64,000 nt of DNA from Paraflavitalea sp. CAU 1676 (lineage in GTDB: Bacteria > Bacteroidota > Bacteroidia > Chitinophagales > Chitinophagaceae): assembly GCF_029223285.1 (NCBI RefSeq), contig NZ_JARHUJ010000008.1, positions 248,001 to 312,000 on the forward strand. The letters run 5' to 3'. Below are positions 7,026 through 51,894 of this stretch, one piece after another (position 1 is the stretch's first letter; each line of letters begins with the position of its first letter). The notes beneath the pieces were generated by a model. The model ran no database searches. It had not been told where the DNA came from and was given only the letters and a program-made list of their open reading frames with translations. A program made the position numbers and the translations under genes.

Positions 7026-7278
7026 AAAGTTTGTACTACTCAGGTTACTGGCAACAATAATACAATGAGGGGCAAGTGAAAACCTGCCCCGTAGTTAACT
7101 ACGTTAACTTGCGTATAGAAAAGCTATAAAAAATCTACTGCGAAAAGTATCTTCCAATAGTCAACACCTGTGCCAGTATGTTAGTGGTTGAAAATCACTA
7201 CTTATTAAAATAATAAACATGACTATCCTGATCGGAAACGATACAGTTCGATCGAATTAGCGAACAATAACGATAGGA

Positions 7279-9513
7279 TTACAACTTTGAAGGAGATCCC
7301 TTTTTTTCCTGGAGTTTAGGAAGACTGAAATTTGCTCCGGACATATTTTTCAGAACTGGAAGGCCACCAGGTTTTTGAGGTATTTCGTACAGCTTCACAG
7401 CAAAGCGGTCTGTTTCTTGTTTTGCTGGCGCACTGGTGGTGGTAGGCACTGGTGGGTTTGGCCTGTCAAGCCTGAAAGTGGCCTTAAAATAGTAACGTCC
7501 AGGTGCCACATTTCCACTGATACCATTACCTTTTTCTGCAATACGCCGCACCTCTGTCTTCATCAGGCCCGACTTATCCTCGGTCGTCAACGTTTTGGAC
7601 GTAGCTTTGGAAGCATAACCTACGATCACAATTTCCTGAACCTGGCCGGCAGCCTGAGCTGGCGCTGATTCATATAGTTCAAAATCCGACAGCTTGCCGG
7701 ATGCATCCAGTACAAACGAAAACCAGATAGAACCTTCCCCATCGTTATCGATCATGTCCTGTGGGTACCGGAAACTCCGGTTGAAATACCTGATCAGTTT
7801 AATGCTCGTGCTATCCTGTTTGGCAGCTTGTTGCAGTTTCAGGGCAAGGAGCGACTGCTGATAGGCGCCGGCAGACTGCTGGTTTTGATAGATCTTTTCA
7901 AGGATCACCTTTTCTTGTTGGTTCAGTTCGGAAGCCTTCTTTTGAACGAGGTCCAGCAGCTGTTTTTTGTAGGCCTGTTGTTCATCGTTCTGTGCTTTGA
8001 GCGTATTCTTCAGCAACTGCAACTGGTCAGCCTCTTTTTCCGCACTCCACTTGTAGTTATCATAGAACTTGTTGTAGTTGTCATAGTACTTGCTCAGCAG
8101 CGCAGTGTCCATGATCAACTGCTCCTGCTGTTTCAGTTTGATCAGTTCCTGTCTCGTAGCCGCTGCCACCGGATCATTGGGTTTGAGCTCCTGGCGCTTC
8201 AACGACTCTATCAGTATTTCTTGCTTCTTTTTCACGACCTCCAGCTCACTGCCTTTTAGCTGTGATTGATTGTAAAAGAAACTAAGCTGTTGTTGTTTCG
8301 TGGCTAATTCCTGATACTCCTGTATTTTTTTGATCAATTGTTCTTTGACCACCTTTTCTTTAAGGGGCGACAATTTTTGAAAACCCGATTGTGATTCCTG
8401 ATAGAAGAGCTTTTGCTCCAGCTGGGCCTTTTCCAGTTGTGTTTTGATGGTCTTGAGCAATTGCTCTTTTTCGTTGGCTTCCAGCTGCTGCTGAGCAGCC
8501 CGGTCCATGACTGTCTTTTGCTTCAACTGAAACAATTGTTCTTTCAAAATCTTTAGGGGCACCGTGTCTGCTACCGGTACAGATAGTTCTGCAGCCTGTG
8601 CATGCTGAACAGCCTTATCGGCCGCCTTCTCCTGGGCATGCAGTGTTACGGAGAAGAACAGGATAATGGAAACAGGCAATATCATAACGCGGCTCCAATA
8701 GCCGTACGACGATTGATTGAGTTGTGTGATCATGGCAATGCGACGCTTTAATTGGTTTTGGAAAAAAGGAGAAGTGAGATCCGCAGCCCGTGACGACATC
8801 ACCTGCTGCACCAACAACTCTGCATACTGGTACCGGTTGCTGTTGGAGATGGCATATTGATCCGCCAAAAACTCATGGATCGCTTTCAGTTCTTTCCGGA
8901 TAAGGTGAAAGAACGGGTTAAACCAACCCAGGATAGTGACAGCTTCAGCCAATAGGGTATCCACCGTATGCCGCTGCTGTACATGGAATAATTCGTGGCG
9001 GAATATTTGCTGACCTTCCTCGCTGTTGAAGTTGAGCGCCTCGTTCCAGTAAATGGAACGGAAGAAAGAAAACGGAGTTCCGGGCTCATGGGTTTGGTAA
9101 AATCGCATGCGCTGCATCGGTTCATAGGGGTACTGCCTCGAAATATGGCGGATGTACAAAAGCCCCCGTATCACTCCCCACAACAGAAAACAAACACCGG
9201 CGGCATACAGCAGCCATAGCAAGTTCGCAACGGTGAAGTAATCAGCAGCCGTCGTTTCCACGACAGCAGCTTCCCCAGCAGGCGCCTGGAAGGTAACGGC
9301 CTTCATGGTCTGGTAAGCTACCTGGTTCATCATCCCCGCATCTTCAAATACCGGGATCCTGAACAACGGCACCACAATAGATAATACCAGGCAGGCCAGC
9401 AGATAAAACCGGTTATAATGGTGAAACCGCTTGTTGCGCAGGAACAGGTGGTAATATCCGAAAAGGATACCCGAACAAAGCGTCACTTTCAAACAGTACA
9501 ACACGATACTCAT
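7279..9513 (-). CDS. M56 (BlaR1/MecR1-type) metallopeptidase receptor with coiled coil and TonB-like C-terminus
   Basis: 744 residues. N-terminal membrane helices at about 5-24, 36-52 and 95-118. The zinc site HELFH is at 173-177, followed by HEFLADQYA at about 213, the M56 pattern. A further helix (about 275-293) ends in an LHAQ cleavage-like site and leads into the periplasm. There a Gln/Lys-rich coiled coil (about 315-575) precedes a TonB-C-like domain (GSIWFSFVLDASGKLSDFEL). That domain contains EIVIVGYASK, like the start of SusC plug domains. In known systems such receptors sense an envelope signal and cleave the BlaI repressor. It is third in the operon after blaI and another M56 gene (31 bp upstream). 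Confidence 0.88.
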   Translation of the reverse strand: MSIVLYCLKVTLCSGILFGYYHLFLRNKRFHHYNRFYLLACLVLSIVVPLFRIPVFEDAGMMNQVAYQTMKAVTFQAPAGEAAVVETTAADYFTVANLLWLLYAAGVCFLLWGVIRGLLYIRHISRQYPYEPMQRMRFYQTHEPGTPFSFFRSIYWNEALNFNSEEGQQIFRHELFHVQQRHTVDTLLAEAVTILGWFNPFFHLIRKELKAIHEFLADQYAISNSNRYQYAELLVQQVMSSRAADLTSPFFQNQLKRRIAMITQLNQSSYGYWSRVMILPVSIILFFSVTLHAQEKAADKAVQHAQAAELSVPVADTVPLKILKEQLFQLKQKTVMDRAAQQQLEANEKEQLLKTIKTQLEKAQLEQKLFYQESQSGFQKLSPLKEKVVKEQLIKKIQEYQELATKQQQLSFFYNQSQLKGSELEVVKKKQEILIESLKRQELKPNDPVAAATRQELIKLKQQEQLIMDTALLSKYYDNYNKFYDNYKWSAEKEADQLQLLKNTLKAQNDEQQAYKKQLLDLVQKKASELNQQEKVILEKIYQNQQSAGAYQQSLLALKLQQAAKQDSTSIKLIRYFNRSFRYPQDMIDNDGEGSIWFSFVLDASGKLSDFELYESAPAQAAGQVQEIVIVGYASKATSKTLTTEDKSGLMKTEVRRIAEKGNGISGNVAPGRYYFKATFRLDRPNPPVPTTTSAPAKQETDRFAVKLYEIPQKPGGLPVLKNMSGANFSLPKLQEKKGSPSKL

Positions 9514-27926: not shown

Positions 27927-28178
27927 GCACAATGTGGAGCTTCATCTGCAATAAAATAATAGTGGATTGTTACGCAACCTTTAATTGCGAAATATTGTCT
28001 TTATAATGGCGTATGCGCGTATACGATAAATAGCCTTCAACAGCAGTAGAATACTTCCATCTTCAAATCATGTTTACAATATCTGCACATAAAAGCCTTT
28101 CACGGGCATCCTGTATCGCTGAACAGTCGAAAAGTGCCCATTTTACCTCAAAAATGGACTGCCTTATAACGAAGATAC

Positions 28179-28266
28179 AGCGCACTTCCAGCGACACCAT
28201 AGCGATCATTTAGCGACCTTACAGCGACATTATAGCGACCTTATAGCGATATTACAGCGATGCTGC
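28179..28266. repeat. Array of eight degenerate 11-bp units (AGCG core)
   Basis: Eight units each exactly 11 bp start with AGCG: AGCGCACTTCC, AGCGACACCAT, AGCGATCATTT, AGCGACCTTAC, AGCGACATTAT, AGCGACCTTAT, AGCGATATTAC, AGCGATGCTGC. The first five or six bases are conserved and the tail varies (consensus AGCGAYMTTAY). No reading frame fits. The spacing is about one helical turn. Confidence 0.85.
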
Positions 28267-33619: not shown

Positions 33620-33835
33620 CGCCACAACCCACGCCCCCACGCATCCCCGCACGCCTACCCGCACCGCCAACCACTCCCTGCTCGCCACTTCCGCCCGCAC
33701 CTCCAAGCACTCCCCACTCGCCACGCATCCCCGCACGTCCACCCGCACAGCCAACCACTCCCTGCTCGCCACTTCCGCCCTCACCTCCAAGCACTCCCAC
33801 TCCCCACTCGCCACGCATCCCCGCACGTCCACCCC
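33620..33835. repeat. C-rich tandem repeat, 84-90 bp period
   Basis: The motif CGCATCCCCG occurs at 33641, 33725 and 33815. Between them the text repeats nearly unchanged (CCAACCACTCCCTGCTCGCC, ACCTCCAAGCACTCCC), giving about 2.4 copies of an 84-bp unit. The second copy has a 6-bp duplication. The plus strand is almost free of G and very rich in C. No homologous gene is visible, although several frames are open because stops are rare. Confidence 0.8.
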
Positions 33836-47083: not shown

Positions 47084-47647
47084 ATGAACAAAATCTACCA
47101 GGCGTCGTTCATTTTGCTGTTGACGATCATGGCGTTTCCCTCCAGGGGGCAAACCATCAGGCCCTTTATCTTCAACTCGACCGGGGGCATCTACAATGAG
47201 CCCAATGGGTATTACCGGTTCGATTGGAGCGTGGGAGAAATGACCATGATCAGTACAATGGCACCGTCCGACAGTACCTTTCTCCTCACGCACGGCTTGT
47301 TACAGCCGTTAACGGAGATCATCGGTAATTCCTACCTGTCACTCTTATTCGCCCCGGGCGAATACCGCTTATTTCCCAATCCCACAGCGGGCAAGTTCGA
47401 GCTAGACTTCTTTATCCGGGAATCCGGCTTTATGCAGTTACAGCTAACGGATAACAATGGTAAAGTACTGGAGAAGCGGGAGTTCGATTACAACAACTGT
47501 TGCCGCATCCACTACTTCGACCTTACCCGCTATCCATCGGGCACCTATTTCGTAGTGGCGCGTTTATCGCCCGACAGGAAAAGGAGTGATAACAAATCGG
47601 TTATCAGGCATAGCGGATTCCGGGTGCTCAAGATCGACAACCGATGA
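47084..47647 (+). CDS. Small secreted protein with T9SS type A sorting domain
   Basis: 187 residues. Signal peptide (NKIYQASFILLLTIMAFPSRG). The middle (STGGIYNEPNGYYRFDWSVG then EMTMISTMAPSD, THGLLQPL) is a compact domain seen repeatedly in Chitinophagaceae T9SS substrates. The C-terminal part is a T9SS type A domain: YRLFPNPTAGKFELDFFI, LQLTDNNGKVLEKREF, HYFDLTRYPSGTYFVVARL, ending GFRVLKIDNR. It should be secreted across the outer membrane and attached at the surface. It precedes the fibre-like gene by 95 bp, so it may be its partner. Confidence 0.85.
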   Translation: MNKIYQASFILLLTIMAFPSRGQTIRPFIFNSTGGIYNEPNGYYRFDWSVGEMTMISTMAPSDSTFLLTHGLLQPLTEIIGNSYLSLLFAPGEYRLFPNPTAGKFELDFFIRESGFMQLQLTDNNGKVLEKREFDYNNCCRIHYFDLTRYPSGTYFVVARLSPDRKRSDNKSVIRHSGFRVLKIDNR

Positions 47648-47742: not shown

Positions 47743-50700
47743 ATGAAGAGAATTTTATGCCTGATCACCGTATTGCAGCTGGTGGCGCTGTGCTCGATGG
47801 CCCAGGCACCGGCCCTGATGAACTACCAGGGGGTGGCCCGTAATGCTGTGGGCAACGCGTTGCCCAACAAGCCCATCAAGCTGCGTTTGAACATCCGTAA
47901 CGGATCGGCTGCAGGCAGCATCGTATATTCAGAAACAAGATCGGTCACCACCAACCAGGTGGGACTGTTCAATGTACAAATAGGAAGCGGTGGCGCTACC
48001 AATGTAAGTGGTACTGTTGCCGGCATCGACTGGAGCAACGGTCCCAAGTTCATACAAGTAGAAATTGATCCCGAGAACGGTACCGCATTTACGTCTGTAG
48101 GAGCTTCCCAGCTACTCTCTGTACCCTATGCCTTGTTTGCAGGGTCGGGCAATGCAGGCGGACCGGCAGGTGGAGATCTTACAGGTACTTACCCTAATCC
48201 GGCCATAGCGCCGGGCGCAGTAGTGAGCAGTAAAATTGCCAGTGATGCGGTAACGACGGCCAAAATTGCTGACGCCAACGTCACTACAGCGAAACTGGCT
48301 GATGGATCGGTAACGATGGCCAAGTTGCAGGATGGATCGGTAGTGACAGTGAAGCTGGCAGATAATGCGGTGACCACGCCCAAGATCGCGAACAATGCAG
48401 TGACCACGGCGAAGGTGTTGGATGGCAATATTACAACAGGGAAACTGGCAGATGGATCAGTATCGACGCCGAAGCTGGGCGACGGCTCTGTTACTACTCC
48501 AAAGCTCGCCGACAATGCTGTAACTACAGCCAAAGTAACGGATGCGAATATCACCTCAGCAAAACTGGCGGATGGATCAGTAACGACGCCGAAACTGGGC
48601 GACGGCTCTGTTACTACTCCGAAGCTCGCCGACAATGCTGTAACTACAGCCAAAGTAACGGATGCGAATATCACCTCAGCAAAACTGGCGGATGGATCAG
48701 TAACGACGCCGAAGCTGGGCGACGGTTCTGTTACTACTATAAAGCTCGCCGACAACGCAGTGACAACTGCCAAAGTAATGGATGCGAATATCACTTCAGC
48801 AAAACTGGCAGATGGATCAGTAACGACCGTCAAAGTACTCGATGCCAACATCACCACACCAAAGCTGGCCGACGGTGCAGTGACGATGGCAAAGCTCGAT
48901 CCCGGTATCACTTTCCCGCCAACAGGACCAGCAGGTGGCGACCTCGACGACACTTATCCCAACCCCACAGTGGCTGCGATCCGTGGCGTCAACGTATCGC
49001 CAACCCTGCCTTTGAACGGTCAGGTATTAAAGTTCAATGGCGTAGACTGGGCGCCTGCTGCCGGCGGTGGCGGCGGGTCACTCACGTTGCCTTATAATAC
49101 GATAGAAAATGATGCAAACACATTGTTCTCCATTACCAACAATGGCGATGGTACATCGCTGGAAGGTATCAACAATACGACCACTTCCAGCATCGCGGCC
49201 ATTCGCGGAGTCATCACCTCCACAGCCCCCGGCGGTTTCTCATCGGCTGTACGCGGTGCCAACAACGGTACCGGCGGACTGGGTATAGGTGTATGGGGAT
49301 CACAGAATGGCTCGGGTTGGGGCGTTTATGGTAATACGCCCAATGGCCTTGGTGTATATGGCAATTCAAGCGCCAACGGCTATGGAGTATATGCCAACAG
49401 CAATACCGGTATCGGCTTGCAGGCTACTTCCAACAATGGTATCGCCGCCAATTTGTCGATCTTTAACAATGCCAATAACAACAATGTACTTAATGCCAGT
49501 ACCGTAGGTAATGGTACAGTCATCAACGTAACGACAACTGGCAATGGTACCGGTGTATTTAGTTCTACCGGTTCAGGTTTTGGTGTGCATGGAATCGCCA
49601 GCTCGCAATCCTCGGCGGGTATTATTGGCGATAACACTGGCGCAGGTGAAGCGGTAGTAGGTCGCACAACTTCCGACATTGCAGGCGCTGTAGTAGGCCG
49701 CAATGATGGCGGTGGTTATGGCGTACGTGGTTTCATTGCCACCAACACCAGTAATACCGGAGTAGGTGTATTCGGACAGGTTGGATTGAACGGTAGTACC
49801 GGCCGCGCAGGTCTGTTTACCAATACCAACCAAACCAATACCGAAGCCAATATCCTGCAGGTAGAGTCCAACAGCAATGGTAATATACCCGACAATACCC
49901 TCGGCAATGCATCGTCCTTCTTCCTCGACAATACCAACAGTGTTGGTGCTGCAGTAAGAGCAGAGGTGAATACCATCTTCGGCAACTTCGGGGCTGCGGG
50001 CGTATTCGGTATTTCATCAGGAACCGGTGGTCGTGCAGGTCTCTTCTATGCATCCAACCCCGCCGGTAATGGCGCTTCACTCATATCGCTCACAGATGGT
50101 AATGGTAATGCTATCACGGCCAATGCCGGTAAAGATGGCAATGGAGTAGAAACCAATATCGATGGAGCTGGTACGGCCCTGTATGCCTGGGTGCCATCCT
50201 TCTCCGAGGGACGTGCAGGCAGGTTCGAGATCTTCAACGAAGACAATGACAATACCGCCGTCACCGTGAAAACAGTAGGTAATGGTACCGCAGGTGATTT
50301 CAAGGTAGATCGTACTACTGGTACATCTCCTGCTGTAAAAGGTGAAGTGAATTCCATCTTCGCCAACTTTGGTACCGCAGGTATATTTGGTGAGTCATCT
50401 GGTACAGGTGGCTATGCAGGTCTCTTCTATTCGTCCAACCCCGGTGGCAACGGTCCGGCCGTACTGGCCCTTACAGAAGGCAACGGCAACGGCATTACCG
50501 CCAATGCTGGTGGCACTGGCGATGGCGTAGAAGCCTCCTGCGATGGCAATGGAAATGCCATCTCTGGTTTCATCCCCAACTTCGGCACCGGTAAAGCTGG
50601 CCGTTTCGCCAACTTCAACAATGCCAACAGTCAGCCAGTTGTGCACGTTACCACAACCGGAACGGGATCTACGCTGCTCGTTAACCACCAGGGCGCATCA

Positions 50701-51213
50701 GGTAGCATTGCTGTATACCAAAGCGCTTCTGTCAACGTAGCCCGCATCAACAAAGCAGGCAGAGGGTTCTTCAACGGTGGTACGCAGAACAGTGGCGCCG
50801 ATATAGCAGAAGCATTTGATGTTACTGGTTCTGCTGCCCAATACGAACCCGGCGATGTATTGGTGATAGCTACTGACAAAGACAGGGCAGTTGAAAAATC
50901 TGCCGGTGCTTACTCTACACTGGTGGCCGGAGTATACGCTACCAAACCCGGCGTTTTGCTCACAGAAGAAGACATCGACAGCGACCTCGCCGGTAAAGTG
51001 CCCATGGGTGTGGTAGGCGTCATTCCTACCAAAGTATGTATGGAAGGCGGCGCCATCAAAAGAGGCGACCTCATCGTTACCTCCTCCATCACCGGCGTAG
51101 CCATGAAAGCCGATCCCGATAAAGTAAAGATCGGTCAGGTAATAGGCAAAGCCCTCCAGGACTACAACGCCAACGGCGTAGGAAAGATCAATGTATTGGT
51201 AAGCATTAAATAA
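47743..51213 (+). CDS. Giant tail-fibre-like surface protein with decapeptide repeats
   Basis: 1156 residues. Signal peptide (KRILCLITVLQLVALCSMAQ). A conserved N-terminal module follows (MNYQGVARNAVGNALPNKPI; LRLNIRNGS; LLSVPYALFAG). Residues about 164-383 are 22 copies of a ten-residue repeat (type KLADGSVTTP). Next comes a long Gly/Asn/Thr-rich region (about 430-1020) of the type GVYGNSSANGYGVY, like a beta-helical fibre shaft. The C-terminus (about 1030-1156) has GADIAEAFDVTG, YEPGDVLVIATDKD, and IKRGDLIVTSS, a module found on many phage-tail-like and surface fibres. No T9SS tag is seen on it. Likely a secreted adhesin or fibre; function inferred. Confidence 0.85.
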   Translation: MKRILCLITVLQLVALCSMAQAPALMNYQGVARNAVGNALPNKPIKLRLNIRNGSAAGSIVYSETRSVTTNQVGLFNVQIGSGGATNVSGTVAGIDWSNGPKFIQVEIDPENGTAFTSVGASQLLSVPYALFAGSGNAGGPAGGDLTGTYPNPAIAPGAVVSSKIASDAVTTAKIADANVTTAKLADGSVTMAKLQDGSVVTVKLADNAVTTPKIANNAVTTAKVLDGNITTGKLADGSVSTPKLGDGSVTTPKLADNAVTTAKVTDANITSAKLADGSVTTPKLGDGSVTTPKLADNAVTTAKVTDANITSAKLADGSVTTPKLGDGSVTTIKLADNAVTTAKVMDANITSAKLADGSVTTVKVLDANITTPKLADGAVTMAKLDPGITFPPTGPAGGDLDDTYPNPTVAAIRGVNVSPTLPLNGQVLKFNGVDWAPAAGGGGGSLTLPYNTIENDANTLFSITNNGDGTSLEGINNTTTSSIAAIRGVITSTAPGGFSSAVRGANNGTGGLGIGVWGSQNGSGWGVYGNTPNGLGVYGNSSANGYGVYANSNTGIGLQATSNNGIAANLSIFNNANNNNVLNASTVGNGTVINVTTTGNGTGVFSSTGSGFGVHGIASSQSSAGIIGDNTGAGEAVVGRTTSDIAGAVVGRNDGGGYGVRGFIATNTSNTGVGVFGQVGLNGSTGRAGLFTNTNQTNTEANILQVESNSNGNIPDNTLGNASSFFLDNTNSVGAAVRAEVNTIFGNFGAAGVFGISSGTGGRAGLFYASNPAGNGASLISLTDGNGNAITANAGKDGNGVETNIDGAGTALYAWVPSFSEGRAGRFEIFNEDNDNTAVTVKTVGNGTAGDFKVDRTTGTSPAVKGEVNSIFANFGTAGIFGESSGTGGYAGLFYSSNPGGNGPAVLALTEGNGNGITANAGGTGDGVEASCDGNGNAISGFIPNFGTGKAGRFANFNNANSQPVVHVTTTGTGSTLLVNHQGASGSIAVYQSASVNVARINKAGRGFFNGGTQNSGADIAEAFDVTGSAAQYEPGDVLVIATDKDRAVEKSAGAYSTLVAGVYATKPGVLLTEEDIDSDLAGKVPMGVVGVIPTKVCMEGGAIKRGDLIVTSSITGVAMKADPDKVKIGQVIGKALQDYNANGVGKINVLVSIK
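48232..48891. repeat. Tandem decapeptide-coding repeats (22 x 30 bp) with 120-bp superunits
   Basis: Inside the fibre-like gene, 22 consecutive 30-bp units encode variants of K-[LIV]-x-D-x-x-[VI]-T-x-x. Units 8-19 form three 120-bp superunits (48442-48561, 48562-48681, 48682-48801). The first two differ at only about four positions, so the expansion is recent. Confidence 0.9.
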
Positions 51214-51231: not shown

Positions 51232-51894
51232 ATGACATTCAAACATCGATATAAAGTAATGATAGGGGTGATGGTATTTCTGGCGCAAGCCTTCATCGCC
51301 AATGCGCAGGAGGATGAGAAAAAGAATACCGGCGAAAGTGTTGGCAAACAGTTCCTCAACAACCGCGTGCCCGGCATGCAATACGCACCTGCAAAACCAA
51401 AAACACAAAGAAGGGCTACCCTGGCCGAACAACAGGAAAACCACGACGAAAGCAGTGGCATGCAATTGAAAAAAGGAACCATTAAGGGAATGACGATGGC
51501 CCCGGGCGCACGCAATACCAACCTGGCTCCGCGTACAACAGCAAAACGCTCCGCGCCTTCCGGTACCTTGAGCAGCGATCAAAAGGCAGAAGCTGTAAAG
51601 CCGGCGGTGCTGCCTGCAACGCAACCGCCCACACAGGGCGGCGTACAAACGCCGAAGGACGATAGGTTGAACCTGACGCCGCGTACCGGCAATCCGCCGA
51701 CCGGCGAAAAGGTGCAGCCAGCCATCAACCGCAACGCACTACCCACCATACAATCGGTAAAGCCTGCTGCGCAGGGGAGCAATGCACCTGCGGCCGACAA
51801 ATTAAAGCCTGCAACCAATGGTGCTAATTCATCCACCATCGATAAGTCAAAAGCTACACCGGTAAAAGCCAATCCGGCACCGGCCCTACAATAA
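51232..51894 (+). CDS. Secreted low-complexity Ala/Pro/Thr/Lys-rich protein
   Basis: 220 residues. Signal peptide (YKVMIGVMVFLAQAFIANAQ) followed by a charged segment (EDEKKNTGESVGKQFLNN) and then a disordered Ala/Pro/Thr/Lys/Asn-rich tail with repeats of type KPA(A/V)xxxx. It starts 18 bp after the fibre-like gene, so they form one operon. No named domain. It could be a wall- or fibre-associated linker or a spacer protein. It ends before a clear terminator. Confidence 0.75.
   Translation: MTFKHRYKVMIGVMVFLAQAFIANAQEDEKKNTGESVGKQFLNNRVPGMQYAPAKPKTQRRATLAEQQENHDESSGMQLKKGTIKGMTMAPGARNTNLAPRTTAKRSAPSGTLSSDQKAEAVKPAVLPATQPPTQGGVQTPKDDRLNLTPRTGNPPTGEKVQPAINRNALPTIQSVKPAAQGSNAPAADKLKPATNGANSSTIDKSKATPVKANPAPALQ

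Follow-up and report, generated by a model that had tools for sequence, protein, structure and literature searches.

The window, i.e. the whole 64 000-nt stretch of DNA that was analysed, belongs to an 8.8-Mb Chitinophagaceae genome and contains an ORF on the plus strand (47743–51213) that starts with ATG and encodes a product of 1156 aa. The sequence-only reading had described it as a 1156-residue fibre-like protein with 22 decapeptides, and our analysis agreed (22 units by a strict count, 23 by a lenient one), as it did for the Gly/Asn-rich shaft (Gly 20 %, Asn 13 % over aa 431–1000). A smaller gene, referred to below as the partner, ends 95 bp upstream. The features of the locus are:

47084–47647 (+), partner gene, 187 aa: signal peptide, unnamed 'SVGE' domain and T9SS type-A sorting domain (aa 96–159) (Pfam, NCBIfam)
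47743–51213 (+), fibre gene, 1156 aa
47743–47805 (+), signal peptide, aa 1–21, MKRILCLITVLQLVALCSMAQ, assigned by eye; helix 2–18 in the model
47815–48141 (+), N-terminal 'NYQ' domain, aa 25–133, a beta-sandwich; model pLDDT mostly 64–90
48157–48204 (+), first linker, GPAGGDLTGTYPNP, DUF5907-like, under the Pfam cut-off
48205–48894 (+), decapeptide stalk, 23 units (22 strict, from 48235), by unit count
48445–48564 (+), 120-bp superunit 1 (TRF, base comparison)
48565–48684 (+), 120-bp superunit 2 (TRF, base comparison)
48685–48804 (+), 120-bp superunit 3 (TRF, base comparison)
48925–48966 (+), second linker, GPAGGDLDDTYPNP, resembling the first linker in sequence
48967–50742 (+), Gly/Asn-rich beta shaft, aa 409–1000 (composition, model); length near-constant in orthologues
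50743–51210 (+), C-domain, aa 1001–1156, putative Peptidase_G2-like chaperone (profile and structure comparison)
51232–51894 (+), secreted-looking protein, 220 aa, N-terminally conserved in the genus; membership uncertain

The N-terminal domain of the fibre begins NYQGVARN and corresponds to no named family in Pfam or NCBIfam; its resemblance to PorU (Z 6.3) was not used, as many Ig-like folds tie with it. A resemblance of the shaft to the S-layer protein RsaA (Z 9–10, rmsd 5.5–6.6) was dropped, the region being mostly below 50 pLDDT. The full-length monomer model has a pLDDT of 44.6, a low score that fits an obligate trimer or a shallow alignment alike. No Bacteroidota promoter pattern was found near the fibre gene, with two in the whole window against 1.4 expected. 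An antisense open frame of 254 aa (48189–48953, minus strand) runs through the array; it probably arises because the repeat lacks stop codons and is not taken to indicate a gene.

The 22 decapeptides follow one another without gaps over aa 165–384, with Lys at position 10 in 22/22 and Asp at position 3 in 20/22, and a degenerate unit at aa 155–164 brings the count to 23. Using TRF, a 120-bp array was detected at 48442–48827 (3.2 copies, 93 % matches), and the array holds an exact 92-base repeat with its copies 120 bp apart. The earlier statement that the superunits differ by only a few bases fits superunits 1 and 2 best (4 differences), the other pairs differing at 12 bases each (1 vs 3 and 2 vs 3). 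When the same peptides were re-encoded with the codon usage of the fibre gene itself, superunits 1 and 2 were identical at 90.4 ± 3.6 bases (maximum 103, 2000 trials), far fewer than the 116/120 observed; their likeness therefore exceeds protein constraint, and recent duplication or conversion of superunits is the simplest reading.

Database comparisons linked the array to phage proteins. It matched phage tail fibres at E values down to 2.4e-65 (PHROG) and 1e-48 (tblastn), and the decapeptide array is shared, at up to about 60 % identity, with tail fibres of cyanophages and Gordonia phages (PHROG 28766, 892 and 21412). These matches are confined to the array, and the N-domain, the C-domain and the partner were not found in the viruses searched. 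In Pfam, the fibre stays under threshold for both Decapeptide (PF25296, 17.6 bits vs a cut-off of 45) and DUF5907 (PF19264, 18.7 bits vs 27). An assignment as a pentapeptide-repeat or PipB-like protein (NCBIfam, PDB; E about 1e-4 to 1e-3) was rejected, since it rests on composition and a related period; the NCBIfam pentapeptide-repeat scores are far under their cut-offs, and the TIGR04294 match spans 10 residues only.

Stalk length was then compared across seven orthologues (labelled here by genome), with stalk and shaft cut points chosen by us. The stalk measures 275 aa in the window, 265 in G001, 215 in G002, 300 in G003, 75 in G004, 166 in G006, 204 in G010 and 95 in G033, a range of 75–300 aa over which the N- and C-domains stay constant and the shaft is 582–592 aa in six of the seven orthologues (703 in G004). 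In the genus orthologues counted, and also in G006 and G033, aa 155 is the first residue of the array. G004 retains three contiguous decapeptide units and otherwise looks normal, and G010 carries collagen Gly-X-Y repeats at the stalk position with a shaft that is still 76 % identical. The best-matching repeat period is 120 bp here, 150 in G001, 120/180 in G002 and 90 in G003, and in the other species our superunit is matched at 87/120 at best, so the superunits arose separately in each lineage. For single units, nearest-neighbour likeness within the gene is only modestly above that between species, so the older units are common to the species. These between-species comparisons support a role for the stalk as a spacer that may be exchanged in length and even in fold. 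The sequence-only reading had proposed that the stalk changes by 40 residues at a time; the large differences between species, with the remainder of the protein near-fixed, bear out a stalk length that varies between species, but not 40 residues as the sole step, given periods of 90, 120, 150 and 180 bp and the exchange for collagen.

The 156-residue C-domain was modelled from a deeper alignment (A6), with a pLDDT of 85. VIA-align ranked two structures of the phi29 gp12 chaperone at the top (3suc, Z 15.3; 3gqh, Z 14.5), the similarity to this chaperone amounting to 2.2 Å over 122 residues with 22 % identity, and a Foldseek comparison gave E 9.5e-5. The profile comparison of A6 with the phi29 chaperone returned E 5e-4 and a probability of 32 %, the shallow profile A1 reached 1 % only, and a PDB sequence search with profiles A1 and A2 yielded no match; it was the structure comparison that settled the assignment. 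Pfam PF11962 (Peptidase_G2) does not match the C-domain itself and matches 4 of 24 aligned relatives (best E 4.1e-4). By sequence, the C-domain was absent from phage records and from 2.9 million viral contigs, so the label 'phage-tail-type' given to it earlier cannot rest on close similarity.

The Asp and Glu of a DxAE motif are invariant in the 24 rows of A6 and aligned with the phi29 motif, and the Asp of GADIAE, D1020, pairs with residue 692 of 3gqh, the first residue in that alignment. Taken with the phi29 fold, the conserved motif predicts, by homology, a trimerisation-dependent self-cleavage between A1019 and D1020 (nt 50799/50800). The next fold relatives are capsid decoration proteins (Z 12.5 and below), for which no cleavage is known, and this counts against the self-cleavage reading. 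The fold and the D-x-A-E are common to the fibre and the gp12 appendage of the Bacillus phage phi29 (PDB 3SUC, 3GQH); unlike gp12, the fibre is cellular and secreted, has no close phage sequence relative and has a cleavage that is predicted only, and the residue before the cut is Ala here (GA↓DxAE) and Ser in gp12. The phage-tail-type modules of the sequence-only reading are thus borne out, by the PHROG matches for the array and by the gp12 chaperone fold for the C-terminal module; the latter is probably a disposable self-cleaving trimerisation chaperone rather than the tip. C1099 in the C-domain is invariant among close relatives.

The sorting domain of the partner scores just above the cut-offs (PF18962, 27.9 bits vs 27; TIGR04183, 23.2 vs 23), and the genome also encodes SprA, the translocon of the T9SS. 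In these respects the locus resembles T9SS type-A cargo, except that the sorting domain is on the partner and not on the fibre: with Pfam and NCBIfam, neither a sorting domain nor a lipobox nor any other signal for export across the outer membrane was found in the fibre, which shows a Sec-type signal peptide only. The partner sorting domain contains a Cys-Cys pair that is absent in distant partners.

We surveyed 82 N-domain genes in 80 loci of named Bacteroidota genomes, each gene preceded by 800 bp or more of sequence, a partner being defined as a sorting-domain protein within 400 bp. A partner-type protein lies beside 66 of the 82 genes, on the same strand in every case (66/66) and flagged as upstream in 63. 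A partner adjoins the N-domain gene in 17/20 loci of a more distant set and, conversely, 27 of the 34 partner matches (relatives) that cover the partner's own domain adjoin an N-domain match. All three N-domain genes of the genome studied here have a partner-type neighbour, downstream in two cases. These two NYQ genes (L010:2426–3430 and L011:232–1200) are followed by larger frames of 335 and 323 aa, each combining the SVGE domain with a sorting domain of the T9SS, so the gene order of the cassette can flip. The distance matrices of the N-domain and partner families correlate with r 0.82, a value that shared descent alone could yield. The fibre gene is one half of a conserved two-gene cassette found across Bacteroidota, a pairing that the sequence-only reading had overlooked along with the partner gene, and from the sequences we infer that the partner may aid export or anchoring of the fibre. 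No description of the fibre/partner pair was found in the open-access literature searched; two tandem Flavobacterium colony-spreading genes (PMC9950754) turned out to be polysaccharide genes.

The N-domain was detected in 41 of 148 genomes sampled from the phylum and the C-domain in 13 of 296 genomes. Pfam modules found in 47 N-domain fibres comprise Collagen (8), DUF5907 (7), Peptidase_S74 (5), C1q (3), DUF7151 (3) and Lcl_C (2). Collagen, Peptidase_S74, C1q and Lcl_C modules are trimer-forming, and their presence in the sister fibres supports a trimeric fibre. By analogy, the closest functional precedent is Lcl of Legionella, a trimeric surface adhesin with a collagen stalk, an Lcl_C head and type II secretion, in which the number of repeats is polymorphic from isolate to isolate and influences adhesion to host cells (PMC11162425). 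The likeness lies in a repeat stalk of variable length and in the Lcl_C heads carried by two sister fibres that share the N-domain; the fibre differs from Lcl in its decapeptide stalk, its C-domain and its T9SS partner, and Pfam detected neither a collagen Gly-X-Y region nor an Lcl_C head in the fibre protein itself. Contig C17 of the same genome encodes tandem paralogues (L053:5281–7047 and 7197–8978) with the shaft and C-domain of the fibre (about 78 % in the C-domain), a different N-terminus and neither stalk nor NYQ domain; no full-length partner adjoins them, a weak sorting-domain match lying downstream only. In a distant relative (G058, L052:5060–12577, minus strand), a 2505-aa protein shows over 100 matches to the decapeptide, and its coding DNA contains long exact repeats.

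The gene order around the fibre gene is kept in four species of the same genus and reads TonB receptor, GDPD, T9SS protein, fibre and 220-aa protein, continuing with a DUF2452 protein, a META protein, a 180-aa protein and a histidine kinase; the exception is G004, in which the TonB receptor and GDPD were not found within the stretch fetched. The fibre gene is a core chromosomal gene and not part of a prophage. That it might be the leftover tail fibre of a prophage, tailocin or contractile injection system is suggested by the matches of the array to tail fibres in 211 phage records and by the phage appendage fold of the C-domain; nevertheless, the protein has a signal peptide, its surroundings are conserved genus-wide with no phage structural-gene setting, the neighbours resemble ordinary chromosomal genes, and neither terminal domain has relatives among the viral contigs. 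A prophage origin was rejected on synteny, neighbours and viral-contig searches, and we regard this explanation as highly improbable.

The signal peptide, the phage-type modules and the species-variable stalk largely support the fibre reading, and we consider it fairly probable that the gene encodes a chromosomal, Sec-exported homotrimeric surface fibre comprising an N-domain anchor, a decapeptide spacer, a shaft and a self-cleaving chaperone. Inferred components of this scheme are the trimer, the self-cleavage, T9SS-dependent display at the surface, a function in adhesion and within-species variation. The fibre would be exported by Sec and its chains would form a homotrimer at the surface, where the beta-sandwich N-domain would hold it at the cell envelope, probably via the T9SS-sorted partner encoded upstream. 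The Peptidase_G2-like domain would trimerise the chains, nucleate folding of the shaft and then excise itself at the predicted site. Any binding surface would be borne by the Gly/Asn-rich beta shaft, and the length of the decapeptide spacer would drift through duplication, deletion and exchange.

Two alternatives concern the location of the protein and the significance of its stalk. The fibre could be an exported envelope protein that is periplasmic or lies under a surface layer, independently of the T9SS partner, and its export signals, as given above, favour this; the conserved pairing with T9SS cargo and the adhesin-type heads of sister fibres, e.g. Lcl_C and C1q, argue for the surface, and we consider the envelope location unlikely. 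We are less dismissive of a neutral repeat, in which slippage adds or removes units and the length of the stalk serves no function, although we still doubt it. Period and unit count vary among species with no evident pattern and G004 appears normal with three contiguous units, in keeping with neutrality; against it, the frame and register of the repeat are kept, the flanking domains hardly vary in length and G010 has another spacer, collagen, in the stalk position.

Extending the surface-fibre reading to the phylum, we tentatively propose a two-component system, which we rate somewhat below an even chance, in which a small T9SS-tagged protein would export or anchor a separate trimeric fibre lacking a sorting signal, the stalk (decapeptide or collagen) and head being interchangeable and the phage-type chaperone being self-excised after assembly. 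If the pairing is functional, the T9SS could display untagged proteins at the surface via a small dedicated partner, and two co-occurring Bacteroidota domains that are unnamed in Pfam and NCBIfam would gain a role. A functional pairing would likewise show parts of phage tails (a repeat stalk and a self-cleaving chaperone) at work in a cellular fibre with a reach that varies by species.

Finally, the window contains two other short tandem arrays, at 28176–28260 and 33637–33834 (11/22/33-bp and 84-bp periods), which are unrelated to the fibre.
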